A DNA stretch of 64,000 nt from Rhizobiaceae bacterium (GTDB lineage: Bacteria; Pseudomonadota; Alphaproteobacteria; Rhizobiales; Rhizobiaceae): positions 1 to 64,000 of the forward strand of contig JALOTE010000002.1 of NCBI GenBank assembly GCA_025458045.1, given 5' to 3'. The notes beneath the pieces were generated by a model that worked only from the letters and a program-made list of their open reading frames with translations, was not told where the DNA came from and made no database searches. A program made the position numbers and the translations under genes. Shown here one piece after another: positions 6,474 through 15,065 of this stretch. The number at the start of each line of letters is the position of its first letter. The stretch's first letter is position 1.

Positions 6474-7760
6474 TCAGCCGTTCAACCAGCCGCGCACCTT
6501 GTCGCGCAGGGATCGTGCGGCGCTGCGCGTCTGCTGACGGATCTGCAACTGCGCCAGCGCCGCACGCGCCTGCCGGTCACGGTCGGGGCCGAGGCCGATC
6601 ACCAGCGTTTCCACCGGCGCGCGCGCGCTCCAGATGCGGTCCATCATCGAATGGTCCGGCACGGCGCAACTGTCGGCGCGCTCGATGTTCGGATCATCGA
6701 TCAGGAATTTCGTCGCCTCGATCATCAATTGCATGCCGGGCGAGGCGGCCGCATGTGTTTCGTCAAAGGCGATCTTCCATGTGTAGCCGACGCCGTTTTC
6801 GATGAGGATGATCAGCGACGCGATGGCGCGGCCATCGAGGTCCAGCGTCATGATGCGCACACGGTCGCGGGCGGCCATGCCGTTGACGGTTTCGCGGGCG
6901 AACGCCGCCTGCATCCGGTCCGAGATCATGGCGGTGCGTTTGCGGCCTTTCCAGCCGCGCGCTTCCAGCGACAGGAACTCCTCCATGCGCCTGAAAATGC
7001 CGTCCGCGTCGCGCGTCAACGTGAACTCGACAGCACCCTTTCCGGCAAGGCGGCGCAATTGCCGCGCATAACCGCGCCGGTGATGGCCGGTGAACACCGT
7101 GCCCAGATAGGCGTCGGCGTCCAGATCGGTTTCCAGCATCGCCCGCGTGACGGGCGCAGTGGCATGGACGGGATAGTCGCGGAGCAGGGCGGCCGCGCGC
7201 AGGACGCGGGCCGCGGCGCCGTCGCGATAGATCTGCGGGATGACGAGCACGCTTGGCAGGCCAAGATGCGGCCTGGCCAGCATGTCCAGAAATTCATCGG
7301 CGACCGCCGCCGGGTCGTCCCCGTCGATCAGCGGCGTGCCGTTCGGGCCGAACACCGTTGCCCATGAACGGATGACCGACGGGCCGACGCCGCCCGCGAT
7401 CAGCCGCTCGATGGTGTAAGGCATCAGCAGGCGCAGGCGCGAGCGCGCCCCGTCCTCGTCCCGCAGCACGGCAAGGCGCACTTCCCGGTCATCCAGCCGA
7501 GGGATGGCGGGCGCAAGGAAGCGCGGGTTGAAATAGACATTGGGCTCGATCGCCCGCAGGCTCAGATGCTCCAGTTCGGCGGCCAAGGTGAAGGCGGCGT
7601 GGCCGGAATAAACCGACAGGCGACGTTGCGCGCCGCTGACGGCCTTGGCCTCCCTGACCAGGGGTGCGTGGGGATCGCGCGGCGTGAACCCGGCCAGGCC
7701 CGAGATCATCGGCCCGGCGGCGCTGAAACTCGTCTCCTCGAAAAGCGGCTGCGCGGCCAC
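6474..7760 (-). CDS. GNAT/FemAB-like acyltransferase (Acetyltransf_6, CelD/BioF2-like)
   Basis: 428-residue protein resembling the GNAT 'CelD-like' family often found in exopolysaccharide loci. The C-terminal half holds the transferase core (YARQLRRLAGKGAVEFTLTRD, FLSLEARGWKGRKRTA, YTWKIAFDETHAAASPGMQLMIEA). The GTG at 7760 is chosen because AAGGGGTGA precedes it and it lies 4 nt after the flippase stop; a TTG at 7814 would overlap the flippase gene by 50 nt. Coupling with the flippase suggests modification of a surface glycan or its carrier. The target is unknown. Confidence 0.75.
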   Translation of the reverse strand: MAAQPLFEETSFSAAGPMISGLAGFTPRDPHAPLVREAKAVSGAQRRLSVYSGHAAFTLAAELEHLSLRAIEPNVYFNPRFLAPAIPRLDDREVRLAVLRDEDGARSRLRLLMPYTIERLIAGGVGPSVIRSWATVFGPNGTPLIDGDDPAAVADEFLDMLARPHLGLPSVLVIPQIYRDGAAARVLRAAALLRDYPVHATAPVTRAMLETDLDADAYLGTVFTGHHRRGYARQLRRLAGKGAVEFTLTRDADGIFRRMEEFLSLEARGWKGRKRTAMISDRMQAAFARETVNGMAARDRVRIMTLDLDGRAIASLIILIENGVGYTWKIAFDETHAAASPGMQLMIEATKFLIDDPNIERADSCAVPDHSMMDRIWSARAPVETLVIGLGPDRDRQARAALAQLQIRQQTRSAARSLRDKVRGWLNG

Positions 7761-7764
7761 AGCG

Positions 7765-9171
7765 TCACCCCTTGGCCGGAGTGACGGACGGCCGCGCGGC
7801 GATGAACATGACAAAGCCCATGCGCCGCCAGACCAGCCAGGACAGCATCACCGCTTCCAGCACCATCGCTCCGGCCGTGGCGATTGCCGCGCCCATCAGC
7901 CCGTAATGCGGGATCAACGCGAAATTCAGGGTCATGTTCGCGCCGAGAGCGACTCCATACGCGAGCGCGCACACCTTCTCATGGCCCGACATTGTGAGCA
8001 CGCTCTCACACGGGCCTGCGGCAGCACGCGCGACGATGCCCAGCGTCAGCACGATCATCAATTGGTGGCCGCTCGCATATTCGCCGCCAAACAGGCGCAA
8101 CAGCAGATCGCCCGTGCCGATCATGATAGCTGCCATGAACACGGACGGCCAGAACATCCAATGTACCGTCTGGCGGGCGAAGGCGGCCAGTTCCGCCTTG
8201 TTCCCGGCATGGACGAGCGCGGCGAAGCGCTGGCCCGCGCCGGCGCGCACTGCGAAATTGACGAAGTGCACAAGCGCCAAAATCTTGACGGCTGCGAAAT
8301 AAATCGCGACCTGGTCGGGCGGCAGCCAGACACCGATCATCAGGACGTCGGCGTTTGTCATGGTGAAATAGAAGCCTTCGACCAGAAAGATCGGCAGCGA
8401 GACTGCGATCCAGTGCCTCAACTCATAGGTCTTGGGGCCGGATCGGATGTCGGCAGGCGTCTTGGCCTGGAGCGCGAGCAGCGCGCCGATGGTCGAGACA
8501 TAGGTTGCGGCGATGGAGGCGATGAGCGCGTTTTCCGCGCTTGCCTCGGCCCCCATCGCGATCGCGCCCAGGACAAAGGCGAGGATCAACAGCGGGCGGA
8601 TGATGTAGATCGGCAGCAGCGACAGCATCGCCCAGCCCTGCGCACGCGACAGGCCGGTGATGTAATCGCCAAGGGCGATCATTGGCAAAAGCACGAGGCC
8701 GAACAGGAACGGCGCGACGTAATAGGCTTCGATCCGGCTTTGGCTCACTTCGACAATTCCGACACCGATCAGCGCCAGCATGCTCGATGCAAGGAACACC
8801 AGCCAGCGCGAGGCCGAAATCATGCCGCGCAGGCGTTCAAGATCGCCATGCTCACGGTATTGCGGCAGGAAACGGATGACCGAAACCTGGAAGCCGAAGC
8901 AGGAAATGTTGCCGGCGATCACCATCGCCGTCCAGACCAGCACGAATATCCCATATTCAAACGTGCCCATCATGCGGGCGAGAATCACCTGGCTGATCAG
9001 CGCGATGGCCGCGGAGACAACGCGCACGACAAAGGCCGAAAGCGCGATGCGCTGCGCTGCCGCCGCGCTGTCCTTGCCCGTCACGATACGCCGGACGCGT
9101 CCTGCAAGGGCTGCGGCCCTTGAAACACCGGCTGCGTCAGAATGGTGCGTGTTGGCGGCGCTTTGCGGCAC
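7765..9171 (-). CDS. Wzx-like polysaccharide flippase / lipopolysaccharide biosynthesis protein
   Basis: 468-residue polytopic membrane protein with about 12-14 hydrophobic helices, beginning IALSAFVVRVVSAAIALISQVILARMMG, the usual opening of polysaccharide_synt/MATE-like flippases, with FEYGIFVLVWT next. It would move a lipid-linked glycan across the inner membrane. No glycosyltransferases or polymerase are nearby, so its glycan is unknown. The start is a GTG at 9171. The downstream GNAT gene follows after 4 nt and is probably in the same transcript. Confidence 0.82.
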   Translation of the reverse strand: MPQSAANTHHSDAAGVSRAAALAGRVRRIVTGKDSAAAAQRIALSAFVVRVVSAAIALISQVILARMMGTFEYGIFVLVWTAMVIAGNISCFGFQVSVIRFLPQYREHGDLERLRGMISASRWLVFLASSMLALIGVGIVEVSQSRIEAYYVAPFLFGLVLLPMIALGDYITGLSRAQGWAMLSLLPIYIIRPLLILAFVLGAIAMGAEASAENALIASIAATYVSTIGALLALQAKTPADIRSGPKTYELRHWIAVSLPIFLVEGFYFTMTNADVLMIGVWLPPDQVAIYFAAVKILALVHFVNFAVRAGAGQRFAALVHAGNKAELAAFARQTVHWMFWPSVFMAAIMIGTGDLLLRLFGGEYASGHQLMIVLTLGIVARAAAGPCESVLTMSGHEKVCALAYGVALGANMTLNFALIPHYGLMGAAIATAGAMVLEAVMLSWLVWRRMGFVMFIAARPSVTPAKG

Positions 9172-9294: not shown

Positions 9295-9852
9295 TCACGG
9301 CTCCAGTTCGGTATCCCAATAGAGATAGTCCATCCAGCTTTCGTGCAAATGGTTCGGCGGGAACAGCCGCCCATTGGCCTGCAAGTCATGCACGCTTGGC
9401 TGGTATGGCTTCTGGCGCGGGAACATCTTGGCCTGATGCGGAAGATGGCCGCCCTTGCGAAGATTGCAGGGCGAGCACGCCGCGACGACGTTCTGCCACG
9501 TGGTTGCGCCGCCAAGACGCCGCGGGATCAGATGGTCAAACGTCAGGTCATCCTTCGTGCCGCAATACTGGCACTCGAATTTGTCGCGCAGGAACACGTT
9601 GAAGCGTGTGAATGCCGGGTGCTTGGCCGGCTGGATGTAGTGCTTCAGCGACACGACGCTCGGAAGCCTCATCGCAAATGACGGCGACGACACCTCGTGC
9701 TCGTATTCCGCAACGATGTTCACGCGATCAAGGAACACCGCCTTGATGGCGTCCTGCCAAGACCAGACTGACAGGGGGAAATAGCTCAGCGGCCGGAAAT
9801 CGGCGTTGAGAACCAGTGCCGGCAGGCTGTCCGGCGATACAGCCAAAGTCAC
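9295..9852 (-). CDS. HNH endonuclease family protein
   Basis: 185-residue HNH nuclease-like protein of the form common in alphaproteobacteria (opening ALVLNADFRPLSYFPLSVWSWQDAIKAVFLDRV). The HNH/zinc region is FECQYCGTKDDLTFDHLIPRRLGG...NVVAACSPCNLRKGG: CxxC, then DHLIPR with the catalytic His, then CxxCN. The true start is a GTG at 9852 with GGAGG 8 nt upstream; the frame stays open to 10206 but that part overlaps the neighbour and has no homology look. Function in the cell is undefined; not linked to restriction genes here. Confidence 0.85.
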   Translation of the reverse strand: MTLAVSPDSLPALVLNADFRPLSYFPLSVWSWQDAIKAVFLDRVNIVAEYEHEVSSPSFAMRLPSVVSLKHYIQPAKHPAFTRFNVFLRDKFECQYCGTKDDLTFDHLIPRRLGGATTWQNVVAACSPCNLRKGGHLPHQAKMFPRQKPYQPSVHDLQANGRLFPPNHLHESWMDYLYWDTELEP

Positions 9853-9974
9853 CTGTGCAGTCCTCCAAGACAGCTCTGGAATCGGACACGGGCATACTAT
9901 GCACGCCATGACAGCAATGTGAAGCGCGGCGAAGGCGCGCGGCGCCCCGGTTTGCACACCGCCGGAAAGGCGCG

Positions 9975-10643
9975 TCATGACACGGGTGGCGGCAGGCCCC
10001 TGTCCAGCCCGTAAACCGCCCACATCAGCCGTGCGGCCACCGCGCGCAGCGGGGCCCAGCGCCGCGCCGTCTCGATCACGCGCTTTTCGTCCGGGCGCGT
10101 GTCCCATCCGAAATGGTCCTGAACCGCCACCTGCAAGGCCAGATCGCGCGCCGGAAACACATCCGGGTGACCGCAGGCAAACAGGAGATAGACCTCGGCC
10201 GTCCACGGGCCAATGCCTTTCACCTGCGTCATCGCGGCAATGGCCTCGGCGGCCGGCTGGCTGGCGACAGCGTCGAGATCAAGCCTGCCCTCGATAACGG
10301 CTGTGGCGCTGGCTGCTAACGCGCGCTGTTTGGGGCGCGACAGGCCCGCCTGCCGCCAGACATCACCCCCGGCATCCAGAAACCGTTCCGGCGACAGGCC
10401 GGGAATGAGGCCGTTCAACCGCTCGTCCAGCACATCGGCCACCCGGGCCGACACCTGTTGCGCGATGATGATGCGGGCGAGCGCCGCAAAGCCCGGCTCG
10501 GCGCGGCGAAGCGGCAGCGGCCGGGCGCGGGCGGCCAGCGGGGCAAGCGCCGGGTCAAGATCGGTCAGGGCCGTCAGCGCCGCGTCAAGCGCATCGGTGG
10601 AGCGGAGCGGAGTTGAATGCATCGGGGCGGACGGTTTGCACAT
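9975..10643 (-). CDS. DNA-3-methyladenine glycosylase II-like (HhH-GPD)
   Basis: Base-excision repair glycosylase of about 222 residues that would remove alkylated purines. The helix-hairpin-helix is MTQVKGIGPWTAEVYLLF, followed by GHPDVFPARDLAL, which holds the likely catalytic Asp. ARIIIAQQVSARVADVL is the family's N-terminal helix. It is short compared with E. coli AlkA because it lacks the N-terminal TBP-like domain, as in many Rhizobiales. The start is uncertain between ATG 10643 and ATG 10620-10622. It is divergent from gluQ with about 27 bp between starts. Confidence 0.85.
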   Translation of the reverse strand: MCKPSAPMHSTPLRSTDALDAALTALTDLDPALAPLAARARPLPLRRAEPGFAALARIIIAQQVSARVADVLDERLNGLIPGLSPERFLDAGGDVWRQAGLSRPKQRALAASATAVIEGRLDLDAVASQPAAEAIAAMTQVKGIGPWTAEVYLLFACGHPDVFPARDLALQVAVQDHFGWDTRPDEKRVIETARRWAPLRAVAARLMWAVYGLDRGLPPPVS

Positions 10644-10670: not shown

Positions 10671-11531
10671 ATGGCCGATGTTCCACAACACGTTTTCAGA
10701 TTTGCGCCGTCACCCAACGGTTATCTGCACCTCGGCCACGCCTATAGCGCGTTTCTGAACGAGGCGTTGGCGCGCGAGGCAGGCGGGCGGCTGCTGCTCA
10801 GGATCGAGGATGTGGACAGGCAACGGTCACGGCCGGAATTTGCGGCGGCGATCATCGACGATCTCGATTGGCTGGGCATCCGGTTCGACGGTGCCATCCG
10901 TCGCCAGAGTGACCATGCGGCCGACCATCAGGCCGCGCTTGACACGCTGTGCGACCTCGGACTGGTCTATGCGTCGGTGATCAGCCGCAGGGACGTTCAG
11001 GCCCATGCCGTTGCCAATCCCGATTGGCCGCACGACCCGGATGGCGCGCCGCATGTGCCGGGCGAAGAGCGCGACATGGCAACCGGTGCGCAGGCCGAAT
11101 TGATCGCTTCCGGTGCGCCGCATGCGCTGCGGCTCGACATGGGCAAGGCTGTGGCGCTGACTGGCCCGCTCTCCTGGATCGAGAAGAATGACGTGCAGGC
11201 GGCGAACCCGCGCGCATGGGGTGACCCGGTGCTGAAAAGCCGCGACGGATCGTTCGCCTATCATCTCGCGGTGGTGACGGATGATGCCGCACAAGGCGTG
11301 ACGGACGTGGTGCGCGGGCGCGACCTCTTTCACCAGACGGCAATCCACCGCCTGTTGCAGGCGGTGCTCGGCCTTTCCGCGCCGCGCTATCACCATCACG
11401 ACCTGGTGTTGGATGATGCGGGCGAGAAACTGGCCAAAAGCCGCAATTCGCCAAGCTTGCGTGACCTGCGCGCGCAAGGTGTCACCCCCGACGCGATTCG
11501 CGAGCGTCTGGGGTTCAGCGCGGCAGGCTGA
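10671..11531 (+). CDS. gluQ: glutamyl-Q tRNA(Asp) synthetase
   Basis: 286-residue GluRS-like protein without an anticodon-binding domain. The family glutamylates queuosine in tRNA-Asp. The ATP signatures are FAPSPNGYLHLGH (HIGH) and EKLAKS (KMSKS). The zinc site usual in the family (YxCxCSR and a later GTCR) reads YASVISR and PGEER here, so all visible zinc Cys are lost. ATG 10671 is chosen as the family N-terminus begins just before the FAPSPNG segment. Its last 17 bp overlap the 3' end of bchJ on the other strand. Confidence 0.9.
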   Translation: MADVPQHVFRFAPSPNGYLHLGHAYSAFLNEALAREAGGRLLLRIEDVDRQRSRPEFAAAIIDDLDWLGIRFDGAIRRQSDHAADHQAALDTLCDLGLVYASVISRRDVQAHAVANPDWPHDPDGAPHVPGEERDMATGAQAELIASGAPHALRLDMGKAVALTGPLSWIEKNDVQAANPRAWGDPVLKSRDGSFAYHLAVVTDDAAQGVTDVVRGRDLFHQTAIHRLLQAVLGLSAPRYHHHDLVLDDAGEKLAKSRNSPSLRDLRAQGVTPDAIRERLGFSAAG

Positions 11532-12159
11532 TTTCAAACCGGCATGCCGGCGCACCGCTGCCCATGCATGCGGTCTCACGCACCATGACATGCGGCGAGA
11601 CGAGTGCTTCAAACAGCCGCATGAACACGGCTTCATGCCAGTGACAATGGTCGAAGCCGGAACGGCCAAGACAGATCGGGTTGCCTTCAATGGCGATCCA
11701 GCCGGCATTGCCTTTCATCCCGGACGTCACGCGCGCGGAACCGGCGAATGTCCAAGCGTTGCGGGTGACGGCCTTGAGCAGCAATCTCAGCGCAATTCTC
11801 CGCGGCAGACGTGTCAGGACGGCTTGCGCCGCCGCAGGGATTCGGTTGGCTAGGATGTAATCACCTGTCCGGCGGCCCGCCTCGCGCATGACGGCTTGCG
11901 CCTGCGCCATGGGCAGGCCGCGCCCGATTTCGCTATTGAGTTGGTTGATGATGTCGGCCGGAACCATGTCCGCCGGATCGTCGGCCTGCCAGGCTTGCAA
12001 GCCCGCCGCATTGAAGATGAGACAGCGCGCCCCAATCCCGCACAGAGCGTCCAGCGCAGCACGGGTCTGGATGATGGCATTCGGCCCGACACGATGGATG
12101 GCGGTGTGGTCCGGTGCCGCCCCGTCAAGGCTGAGGCTTGCGCGCATGGCCGCGCTCAT
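11515..12159 (-). CDS. bchJ: bacteriochlorophyll 4-vinyl reductase-family protein BchJ (V4R domain)
   Basis: 214-residue V4R-domain protein matching the length and C-terminus of BchJ ([22 protein letters not shown], then [16 protein letters not shown]). BchJ was assigned to reduction of the 8/4-vinyl group in bacteriochlorophyll synthesis; later work in the field credits other enzymes with the main activity and suggests BchJ aids precursor handling, so its reaction should be stated cautiously. Its ATG overlaps the bchE stop by 4 nt (ATGA), the same bchE-bchJ order as in Rhodobacter. It converges on gluQ with 17 bp shared. Confidence 0.88.
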
Positions 12160-14150
12160 CCCTTGGCCGCTTCGACCACTTTGCCCCCGGACGTGATCAG
12201 CGGAGCGCCCGCGTGGACAGGCTTTGCACCCTTGCCGTTCCCGCCGCATGAACCGTTGCCGCCGCAGCCGCAAGCGTGGTCCGTGTCCGCATGCCCATGA
12301 CCATTCCCGTGATCGTGATGCTGCTGATCATGACCGTGCCCTTCGTTGCCACACCCACAGCCGCCTTCGGCCTGTAGCGGCCGTTCTGTTCTCAACGGAG
12401 TGAGCAGATGGGCCGGGAGCTCACCCACAAGGTCGGCGATCTGGCCGACGCCGCCGCCACAGGCCGAGGGCGGCGTGCGGTTCTCCATCGCCAATTGCGT
12501 TTCCTCCGACAGGCGCGGCTCCAACCCTTCGGCTGCAGCGGCCAGCACGGCGGATTTCTCGCGCGCGGCTTTCATGCGCTTGGCGCGGTCGGCTGCGGCC
12601 TCCCATTCGGCAGCCTGCGCCGGCGCAATCGATTTCGACTGGTCGAAGTGGAAATCGACGCCCTTTTTCGATTGCGGACCCCAATAATTGACCTTGCCGA
12701 GGTCATAGAAGGTACGCGCGAAGCCAGCCTTGAGGAAGGCCTTGAGGCAGCCGAGCAGATAGCGCCGCCGGAAGCCGGTGCCGCGCCACGGATAATGGAA
12801 CAGCGCCTTGCGCATGTAGAAGCGGCGATAATTGTTCATCGTCCGGTCGAGCAGTTCGGCGCGGTCCATCGCGGCCGGCTTCATGATCGGCGTGACGAAA
12901 TTGTATTTGGAGAAATCGAACACCTCCACCTTGTCAGCCAGTTCCTGATAGAGCGGGGTGAACGGCCACGGCGTGTACATGGACCAGTTGGCGAGGTCTG
13001 GCTGCCAGTCCCACGCCATGCGGTAGGTTTCTTCCAGCGTCTCCGGTGTCTCATTGTCGAGGCCGACGATGAACTGCGCCTCGGTGAAAATGTCGGCCTC
13101 GCGCAGCAGGCGGATCGCCTCCTTGTTGTCGGCGACCTTGGTCTCCTTGTTGAACTGGTCAAGCTTCAACTGGGCTGCGGCTTCGGTGCCGAGCGACACA
13201 TGCACCAGCCCCGCCTTGCGGTAGAGCGGCAGCAATTCCTTGTCGCGCATGATGTCGGTGACGCGGGTGTTGATGCCCCATTTCACCTTGTCGGGCAGGC
13301 CGCGGGCGATCAGCTCCTCGCAGAATGCGATGAACTTCTTGCGGTTGATGGTCGGTTCCTCGTCGGCAAGGATGAAAAAGCCGACACCGTTTTCATTGAC
13401 CAGCTTCTCGATCTCATCGACGACCTTCTTGGGATCGCGCACGCGGTAGTCGCGCCAGAATTTCCACTGCGAGCAGAACGAACAGGTGAACGGGCAGCCG
13501 CGCGCCATGTTGGGGATGGCGACACGCACGCCAAGGGGAATGTAGATGTAGTTCTTCCAGTCGATCAGCGACCAATCCGGGTTGATCGAATCGAGATCCT
13601 TGACTGTCGGCGCCGCCGCCGACGCCTTGATCTCGGTGCCCTCGCGCCAGGCGAGCCCCTTGATCTTGGCGCGGTCCTGCGGCCAGCGCTTCTCGGCGAC
13701 GGCGGTCACCAGATCGGTGAAAATTTCCTCGCCTTCGCCGCGCACGATCACATCGACCTGCGGCGCCTCCGACAGCACCTGGCGATACATGAAAGTGGCG
13801 TGGATGCCGCCGAGCACGCGCACGGCCTGCGGGCACGCGGCCTTGGCAAGTTCGAGCACGCGCTCGGCGGCGTATATCGACGGCGTAATGGCGGTCACGC
13901 CGACGACATCCGGCTGCAGCTCTGCGAGCCTTGCCGAAACCTCTTCCTCGCTGAGATGATCTGTCATCGCATCGAAGAAGGTGATATCCGTGATGCCGTG
14001 GCGCTTGAGATGCCCGGCCAGATAGGCAACCCATGCGGGCGGCCAGTTTCCGGCGATCTCCGCCCCGCCGGAGTGGTAATTCGGGTGAATGAGCACGACC
14101 TTGACAGGCCGTACGGGAACACCGGTGAGTTCGGTTTGGGCAATCGTCAC
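12156..14150 (-). CDS. bchE: anaerobic Mg-protoporphyrin IX monomethyl ester oxidative cyclase
   Basis: Radical SAM/cobalamin enzyme that forms ring E of bacteriochlorophyll without oxygen. The N-terminus has the BchE opening ([21 protein letters not shown], residues 20-40) and a B12-binding-type domain. The [4Fe-4S] motif is CPFTCSFC (Cys 219, 223, 226). Length is 664 against about 575 in Rhodobacter. The excess is a C-terminal tail, whose residues 596-641 contain 8 His and 5 Cys ([17 protein letters not shown] and two CxC pairs). The start is GTG 14150 with GGGAGG about 9 nt upstream. Oxygen and redox control is expected from the FNR and PpsR sites upstream. Confidence 0.96.
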
Positions 14151-14195
14151 GGCTTCAGCCTCCCGCCAGAGAATGCGGAAAGCCTAGCGCGGATG

Positions 14196-14213
14196 TGTCA
14201 CGCTAGATTGACA
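14196..14213. promoter_or_regulatory. PpsR/CrtJ binding palindrome upstream of bchE (site 1)
   Basis: TGTCACGCTAGATTGACA matches the PpsR/CrtJ consensus TGTc-N10-gACA exactly. It lies 45 bp or more before the bchE GTG. PpsR/CrtJ is the aerobic repressor of photosynthesis genes in purple bacteria. A second, degenerate palindrome follows 8 bp away, the spacing at which CrtJ binds cooperatively on known promoters. Confidence 0.8.
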
Positions 14214-14221
14214 TGGATCAA
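14208..14221. promoter_or_regulatory. FNR/FixK box upstream of bchE
   Basis: TTGACATGGATCAA on this strand reads TTGATCCATGTCAA on the bchE strand and fits TTGAY-N4-RTCAA. Its centre (14214.5) is about 64 bp before the start codon. If it acts at -41.5, transcription would begin near 14173; a weak -10-like TAGGCT lies at 14187-14182 in that register (inference). It overlaps PpsR site 1 by 6 bp and fills the 8-bp spacer to site 2. Confidence 0.8.
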
Positions 14222-14239
14222 TGGAATTTTCGATTGACA
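14222..14239. promoter_or_regulatory. degenerate PpsR/CrtJ half-matched palindrome (site 2)
   Basis: TGGAATTTTCGATTGACA keeps the GACA half-site and has TGGA in place of TGTC. It starts exactly 8 bp after site 1 ends, which makes it a plausible cooperative partner. Alone it would be unconvincing. Confidence 0.5.
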
Positions 14240-14252
14240 CTTTGGTGGCCGT

Positions 14253-15065
14253 TCAGTGCCTTGTCCCGCTTTGCCGCAATCGGCGCTCCAAGGCTCGAAG
14301 CGCCAGCGACAGTCCGATCGTCAGGATGAGATAGACGTAAGCCGCAATCGAGTAGGTTTCAAAATAGCGGAAATTGCCGGCCGCATAGACCTTGGCCAGC
14401 TGTGTGATGTCAGAGACGCCGAGCACGGAAACAAGCGATGAGTCCTTCACCATCGCCACGAAATCATTGCCCAGGGGCGGCAGGATGGTGCGGATCGCCT
14501 GCGGGAAGACGATCAGCCGGAAGCGCTGCCAGCCGCCGAGGCCGAGCGCCTTGCCGGCCTCCACCTGGCCCTTGTCGACCGACAGGATGCCAGCGCGGAA
14601 CACCTCCGCGATGAAGGCGGAATAGCCGATCATGAGCGCGAAGATCGCGCGCCACAGAAGCGAGAAATCCCGCGTGCGGGCTTCCTCCATCAGGCCTGCC
14701 GCCTGCAAGGGCTGCGTGATCAGGTTCCAGAGAGCCACAAGCGCCGGTGCCGCCGCAAAGGCGATATAGAACAGCAGCACCATGATGGGCAGGCCGCGGA
14801 TCACCTCGATGTAGAAGCGCGCCATCTGCCTGAGCACGATGTGCTTCGACAGGCACATGACGGCCAAGCCGAGACCAAGCAGCGTCGCGCCTGAAAACGC
14901 CACGATGGTGACGAAGATCGTCAACGCGATGCCGTTTGTCAGCTTGTCGAGCACCTGGGTGTAAATGTCATTGGTGGCGATCACCCATGCCACCCACAGG
15001 CCGATCAGCACGCAGGCGACCAGCCACCAGGGGAAGTCCTTGTCGTTGGCGGAAGAGGGGGTCAA
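14253..15065 (-). CDS. amino-acid ABC transporter permease (HisM/GlnP family)
   Basis: 270-residue inner-membrane permease of a polar amino-acid importer. The EAA loop is AEVFRAGILSVDKGQVEAGKALGLGGWQRFRLIVFPQ, which docks the ATPase. It has five to six hydrophobic segments and GNDFVAMVKDSSLVSVLG, typical of the family. The start is a TTG at 15065 inside a TTGA overlap with the GNAT stop; no in-frame ATG precedes the conserved part, so translation is probably coupled. No ATPase gene follows: bchE is next on the same strand. Confidence 0.87.
   Translation of the reverse strand: MTPSSANDKDFPWWLVACVLIGLWVAWVIATNDIYTQVLDKLTNGIALTIFVTIVAFSGATLLGLGLAVMCLSKHIVLRQMARFYIEVIRGLPIMVLLFYIAFAAAPALVALWNLITQPLQAAGLMEEARTRDFSLLWRAIFALMIGYSAFIAEVFRAGILSVDKGQVEAGKALGLGGWQRFRLIVFPQAIRTILPPLGNDFVAMVKDSSLVSVLGVSDITQLAKVYAAGNFRYFETYSIAAYVYLILTIGLSLALRALERRLRQSGTRH

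Follow-up and report, generated by a model that had tools for sequence, protein, structure and literature searches.

The bchE locus and its upstream region

The window, which is the whole stretch of 64,000 nucleotides from a Rhizobiaceae bacterium analysed here, carries bchE on its minus strand (12156..14150; TIGR02026, 827.6 bits against a cut-off of 481), with a GTG start codon at 14150 in the minus-strand sequence. A bchJ open reading frame on the same strand (11515..12273; TIGR02019, 152.5 bits, cut-off 74.3), the start codon of which is uncertain, overlaps the end of bchE as listed, and the 2 genes are probably co-transcribed. Upstream of bchE, a gap of 102 bp (14151-14252) extends to a minus-strand gene for an amino-acid-type ABC permease (14253-15065), which borders it on the 5' side. 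In the minus-strand direction, the gap leads through TGTCAATCGAAAATTCCA, TTGATCCATGTCAA, TGTCAATCTAGCGTGACA, TAGGCT and GGGAGG, in this order, to the GTG codon. Elsewhere on the minus strand of the window, positions 6474-7814 encode a protein that is similar to the BspF model (GNAT) at 504 bits, under the cut-off of 775, and the product of positions 9295-10206 contains an HNH endonuclease domain (Pfam HNH and HNH_5) and is weakly IscB-like over about that domain.

The sequence-only reading had described a perfect PpsR palindrome, an FNR/FixK box overlapping it by 6 bp and a degenerate second palindrome 8 bp beyond the first, and all 3 elements are present at these places on the minus strand. 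The PpsR/CrtJ palindrome TGTCAATCTAGCGTGACA (14196..14213) matches TGT-N12-ACA without mismatch, and the FNR/FnrL box TTGATCCATGTCAA (14208..14221) deviates at 1 position from TTGAT-N4-ATCAA (TTGAC-N4-ATCAA in the plus-strand reading of 14208-14221). The 2 sites have the sequence TGTCAA in common (14208-14213, on the bchE coding strand), such that the first 6 bases of the palindrome (14213-14208) form the right end of the box. The degenerate palindrome TGTCAATCGAAAATTCCA (14222..14239) has one good half-site, TGTCAA, and reads TGG-N12-ACA on the plus strand, with 1 of its 6 fixed bases wrong; it is separated from the perfect palindrome by 8 bp (14214-14221). A palindrome with at most 1 mismatch would be expected by chance in approximately 1.2-1.7% of cases when 4 positions are allowed (a gap of 7 or 8 bp on either side), and no second perfect palindrome is found 7-8 bp to either side of the window's PpsR palindrome.

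A sigma-70 consensus scan of positions 14100-14300 found nothing. Among 81 bchE promoters with an FNR box (see below), TAnnnT hexamers are most frequent at offsets 35 and 36 from the box (17 and 15 promoters, respectively), which would place the centre of the box at approximately −40.5 to −41.5. In the window, the corresponding hexamer is TAGGCT (14181..14186, minus strand), a predicted −10 element from which transcription would start near 14174; counted from this element (14186-14181), and hence from a predicted start, the box is centred at approximately −40.5. A Shine-Dalgarno-like GGGAGG (14159..14164, minus strand) lies 8 nt 5' of the GTG codon. In class II FNR activation the box is centred near −41.5, and class II FNR-dependent promoters have no good −35 element. 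The bchE promoter would resemble them in the spacing between the box and the predicted −10 element and in having no good −35 element, but differs in that the downstream half-site of its box doubles as a repressor half-site. By the same numbering, the overlapping PpsR site would span about −22 to −40, or to −39 in the window.

Regulator genes and specificity of the composite site

Both regulators for which the sequence-only reading had advised searching the genome are encoded in it, so the lack of a PpsR or FNR homologue, which would have refuted that reading, does not apply. PpsR (G000:C110; TIGR02040, 308.5 bits, cut-off 275.4) is encoded next to bchG, and a gene recognised by eye, which we take to be bchF, also lies beside ppsR. 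The short gap between ppsR and bchF (L141:3131-3414), from which the 2 genes diverge, contains no perfect PpsR palindrome and does not seem to leave room for an aerR/ppaA gene. The FnrL-like protein (L116) has a C-x2-C-x7-C motif and one further cysteine, i.e., 4 cysteines, and an HTH_Crp_2 domain above cut-off; its score of 235 bits against the FnrL model is under the cut-off of 300, the model being Rhodobacter-trained. The adjoining gene, recognised by eye, is presumably ccoN. The genome also encodes AcsF and 2 reaction-centre proteins, presumably PufL and PufM. AcsF is the oxygen-dependent alternative to BchE, and thus bchE would serve as the low-oxygen member of a pair of cyclases.

Three photosynthesis contigs of this genome (C110, C128 and C34) contain 7 perfect PpsR palindromes, of which 2 are paired, 7 bp apart, between crtD and a crtE-like prenyl synthase gene (scoring below the family cut-offs), 1 lies upstream of bchC and the other 4 are at L141:4260 and L143:3657, 6437 and 12336. 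No strict FNR box was found on these 3 contigs, and hemN of the same genome has an FNR box but no perfect PpsR site. Among the promoters of this genome that were examined, only that of bchE has both kinds of sites meeting.

A lone TGT-N12-ACA palindrome says little, with 13 matches in the window versus 4.8 expected from shuffles and 407 in the genome versus 372 for the backwards pattern. When up to 1 mismatch is allowed, the window has 2 FNR boxes, at 14208 and 47949. We searched for the composite pattern TTGAYNNNTGTCAAN9ACA, with the same pattern backwards as a control. Within the 3.02-Mb genome, the composite has a single match, at bchE, and the control has none; the scan of the whole genome revealed no composite at any other gene. 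Across 201 genomes (this one and 200 relatives), the composite is present in 15, with one copy each, and the control in 1. Six of the 15 copies are located just upstream of bchE (G000, G049, G098, G141, G143 and G155) and 1 at hemN (G179), these 7 being the copies that were annotated. In 17 further genomes, which were selected for having the composite at bchE, 17 of the 20 composites are at bchE, as recognised by their sequence, and the control has 0 matches; of the remaining 3, one has a trimethylamine methyltransferase gene nearby, one an M20 peptidase gene and one open reading frames without family match.

HemN catalyses another oxygen-independent radical-SAM step of tetrapyrrole synthesis. 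We surveyed hemN in 19 genomes (this one and 18 bchE-bearing relatives, leaving out 4 relatives with BchE scores of 517-555 bits), which contain 20 hemN genes above cut-off; 16 were scanned over 600 bp of upstream sequence, no start motif having been found for the other 4. A strict or near-strict FNR box is present in 9/16 upstream regions and a perfect PpsR palindrome in 5/16. The 2 sites overlap, in the mirror orientation, upstream of hemN in G179 (L144:5657-5682), a genome which also carries bchE. Elsewhere both sites are present without overlap, 39 bp apart in L155 (G187), 56 bp apart in L160 and still further apart in L146 and L157. In 2 genomes, G155 (L016/L164) and G186 (L018/L145), hemN and bchE lie on one strand, within approximately 1 kb of each other.

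Conservation of the overlap across bchE promoters

We compared 96 distinct bchE upstream regions, namely, the window, 17 other loci from the genome search and 78 from related contigs. The starting set comprised 104 regions (the window, L006-L028 and L036-L115), of which 5 without a start motif (L021, L025-L028) and 3 duplicates (L008, L049 and L050) were dropped; L029-L035 were left out as falling below the BchE cut-off. The related contigs are the 80 best-ranked among at least 542 confirmed relatives, and therefore distant bchE loci are under-sampled. A strict FNR box (TTGAY-N4-RTCAA within the last 200 bases) is present in 81 of the 96 regions and absent from 15; offsets below are counted from this box. 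Three bchE promoters (L010, L014 and L018) have 1-2 perfect PpsR palindromes with no strict FNR box adjacent.

Perfect PpsR palindromes in the 81 promoters fall at 2 positions: the overlap position at +8 (34/81), as in the window, and a downstream position at +32 to +34 (48/81), where the site spans the −10 element and the start; at any other offset between −45 and +59 they number at most 2. When 1 mismatch is allowed, 49 of the 81 promoters have a site at +8 and none at +7 or +9, whereas the downstream position is occupied in 5, 48 and 10 promoters at +32, +33 and +34, respectively; apart from 3 sites at −18, including that of the window, no other offset exceeds 4. Perfect overlap and downstream sites occur together in 12 promoters, the overlap site alone in 22, the downstream site alone in 36 and neither in 11. 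Since 36 promoters have the downstream PpsR site alone, PpsR control does not depend on the overlap. Of the 2 sites, the window has that at +8, whereas at the conserved downstream position (14171..14188, minus strand) it has GCTAGGCTTTCCGCATTC at offset 33, and no PpsR site is recognisable at +32 to +34, over its −10 element.

The 2 halves of each site go together. TGT at +8 and ACA at +23 are associated (34/13/7/27; Fisher, p = 5e-6), including after thinning to 75 promoters (p = 6e-6), and both are present in 34 promoters versus a mean of 0.7 after shuffling of the downstream bases. The halves of the +33 site are likewise associated (Fisher, p = 9e-10). With independent pairs on the BchE tree, the association at +33 holds (median p = 0.008), whereas that at +8 keeps its direction (same, 4.0; opposite, 0.4; no difference, 5.6) but is not significant (median p = 0.22). 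On this tree, which is a quick one without bootstrap and with long branches (L020 and L089), the overlap state changes at least 16 times. The overlap is present in loci named Rhodobacterales, Hyphomicrobiales, Rhodospirillales and Cellvibrionales and was not seen in the few loci of Woeseiales, Sphingomonadales, Maricaulales and Parvularculales. Yoonia and Lutimaribacter are examples of the overlap type of promoter, and Cereibacter is one of the −10-site type. A trade-off between the overlap site and the −10 site (Fisher, p = 2.5e-4; independent pairs, median p = 0.125) is suggestive only.

A chance origin of the FNR/PpsR overlap is ruled out by its exact offset and by the single composite in the genome; the overlap is real. 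As judged from the sequences compared, it is kept at one exact geometry and is nearly specific to bchE.

Probable competition for a shared half-site

An FNR-type activator and the PpsR repressor appear to share a six-base stretch of the bchE promoter, for which they would probably compete; many phototrophic bacteria have this arrangement. From the sequence, the geometry, the near-specificity for bchE and the regulator genes, we infer binding, class II activation and competition; the explanation which we favour, and consider fairly likely, is that the promoter of bchE, and probably of bchJ, is activated by FnrL in class II fashion, with PpsR competing through the shared half-site. At low oxygen, the FnrL-type activator would occupy the FNR box near −41 and activate as a class II regulator. 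When oxygen is present, active PpsR would occupy the palindrome containing the downstream half-site of the box. Because the recognition helices of both proteins would have to occupy the major groove at TGTCAA, the binding of one should preclude that of the other, and PpsR would repress mainly by denying FnrL its half-site and by occluding the region from −35 to −10. The exclusion of activator by repressor, as put forward in the sequence-only reading, is thus plausible on sequence grounds, with one PpsR site rather than a pair across the FNR box.

An alternative that we consider unlikely, although the strongest competitor, is that both regulators act but PpsR blocks RNA polymerase directly, the shared half-site reflecting the crowding of a short promoter and the exclusion of FnrL being minor. 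The perfect sites over the −10 element in 48 of the 81 promoters, alone in 36 of them, are in its favour, as is the available account of Rhodobacter capsulatus, in which CrtJ remains bound anaerobically (PMC5362033). However, crowding alone predicts varied offsets, and the exact spacing at +8 (49 promoters, against 0 at +7 and +9) therefore counts against it; so do the repeated changes of the overlap state on the tree and the window itself, which has the overlap site but none over the −10 element. It is rather improbable that the FNR box alone functions here and that the palindrome is a relic left when its downstream partner was lost. Such a loss would fit the empty position at +32 to +34 in the window, the paired CrtJ sites 8 bp apart at bchC (PMC6199135) and the perfect pair between crtD and the crtE-like gene of this genome, but in 22 promoters the overlap site is perfect and the downstream one is not, a lone overlap site thus being a common state. 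The cooperative binding of 2 PpsR dimers to sites 8 bp apart, with the FNR box occupying the spacer, the layout proposed in the sequence-only reading, is very improbable despite the 8-bp gap, the good TGTCAA half of the upstream site and the perfect upstream sites of L091 (at −18) and of L043 and L044 (at −19; identical BchE), because a site at −18 is found in only 3 of the 81 promoters (upstream background for sites with at most 1 mismatch, 0.4 per offset), so that we reject the pair as a conserved layout, and because the conserved partner sits downstream, across a 7-8-bp spacer without FNR box, and hence the box is not inside the spacer.

Control of bchE by FnrL and PpsR/CrtJ is already published for Rhodobacter (PMC4263372, PMC2908626, PMC4344238, PMC5362033, PMC4634722). 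The bchEJGP promoter of Rhodobacter (Cereibacter) sphaeroides resembles that of the window in having the same gene under the same pair of regulators (PMC4263372, PMC4344238). Its FnrL site is TTGACatgcATCAA (PMC2908626), and changing the T of TCAA at −57 abolishes approximately 90% of the activity under FnrL induction (PMC4263372). FnrL activates bchE in reporter assays (PMC4263372), whereas global expression analyses list bchE among the genes unchanged or repressed by FnrL (PMC4263372, PMC4634722). PpsR gives a ChIP signal with a palindrome at bchEJ, where it is bound and repressing, the site being TGTCAACTGAAATGGACA (PMC4344238). The right half of the R. sphaeroides FnrL site is ATCAA and therefore leaves no place for the TGT of a palindrome overlapping it; the PpsR site would be of the downstream, −10-covering type, as judged by its likeness to that of a relative, C. 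changlensis (L093). In R. capsulatus, FnrL activates bchE, and few regulated genes are common to FnrL and CrtJ (PMC5643017). CrtJ enrichment by ChIP at bchE is comparable during aerobic and photosynthetic growth (PMC5362033), which counts against simple displacement in that species. The CrtJ sites of R. capsulatus bchE are described as distant (PMC6199135), and thus its architecture may differ from that of the overlap promoter. The passages covered on D. shibae FnrL do not name bchE. Operators of PpsR/CrtJ proteins include a second palindrome 8 bp away at bchC of R. capsulatus, and distant partners have also been described (PMC6199135). The window shares the TGT-N12-ACA palindromes with bchC, but there 2 palindromes are paired, whereas here one overlaps the FNR box and its candidate partner is degenerate and lacks conservation. 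In the accessible parts of the open-licence literature, most subscription-journal papers being outside this scope, we found no description of an FNR/PpsR shared half-site. Older work on fnrL and bchE in Rubrivivax and Rhodobacter may describe part of the arrangement.

More tentatively, and with somewhat less than even confidence, we propose that bchE promoters alternate between 2 modes of PpsR action, with many switches, which would tune whether FnrL overrules PpsR. In one mode, the PpsR site would lie on the half-site of the activator and the competitor would be FnrL; in the other, it would lie over the −10 element and the competitor would be RNA polymerase. Judging by their published sites, the Rhodobacter models would rely on the second mode or on distant sites, and the first would have been overlooked for this reason.

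In the literature covered, FnrL and PpsR/CrtJ are handled as separate inputs to photosystem genes. With the shared half-site, a single DNA fragment and the 2 proteins would suffice for a direct test of how they relate at bchE, the oxygen-sensitive cyclase step, and the natural variants, with the overlap site only, the −10 site only, both or neither, provide ready-made comparisons. The shared half-site also suggests that R. sphaeroides and R. capsulatus may be unrepresentative with respect to the bchE promoter.
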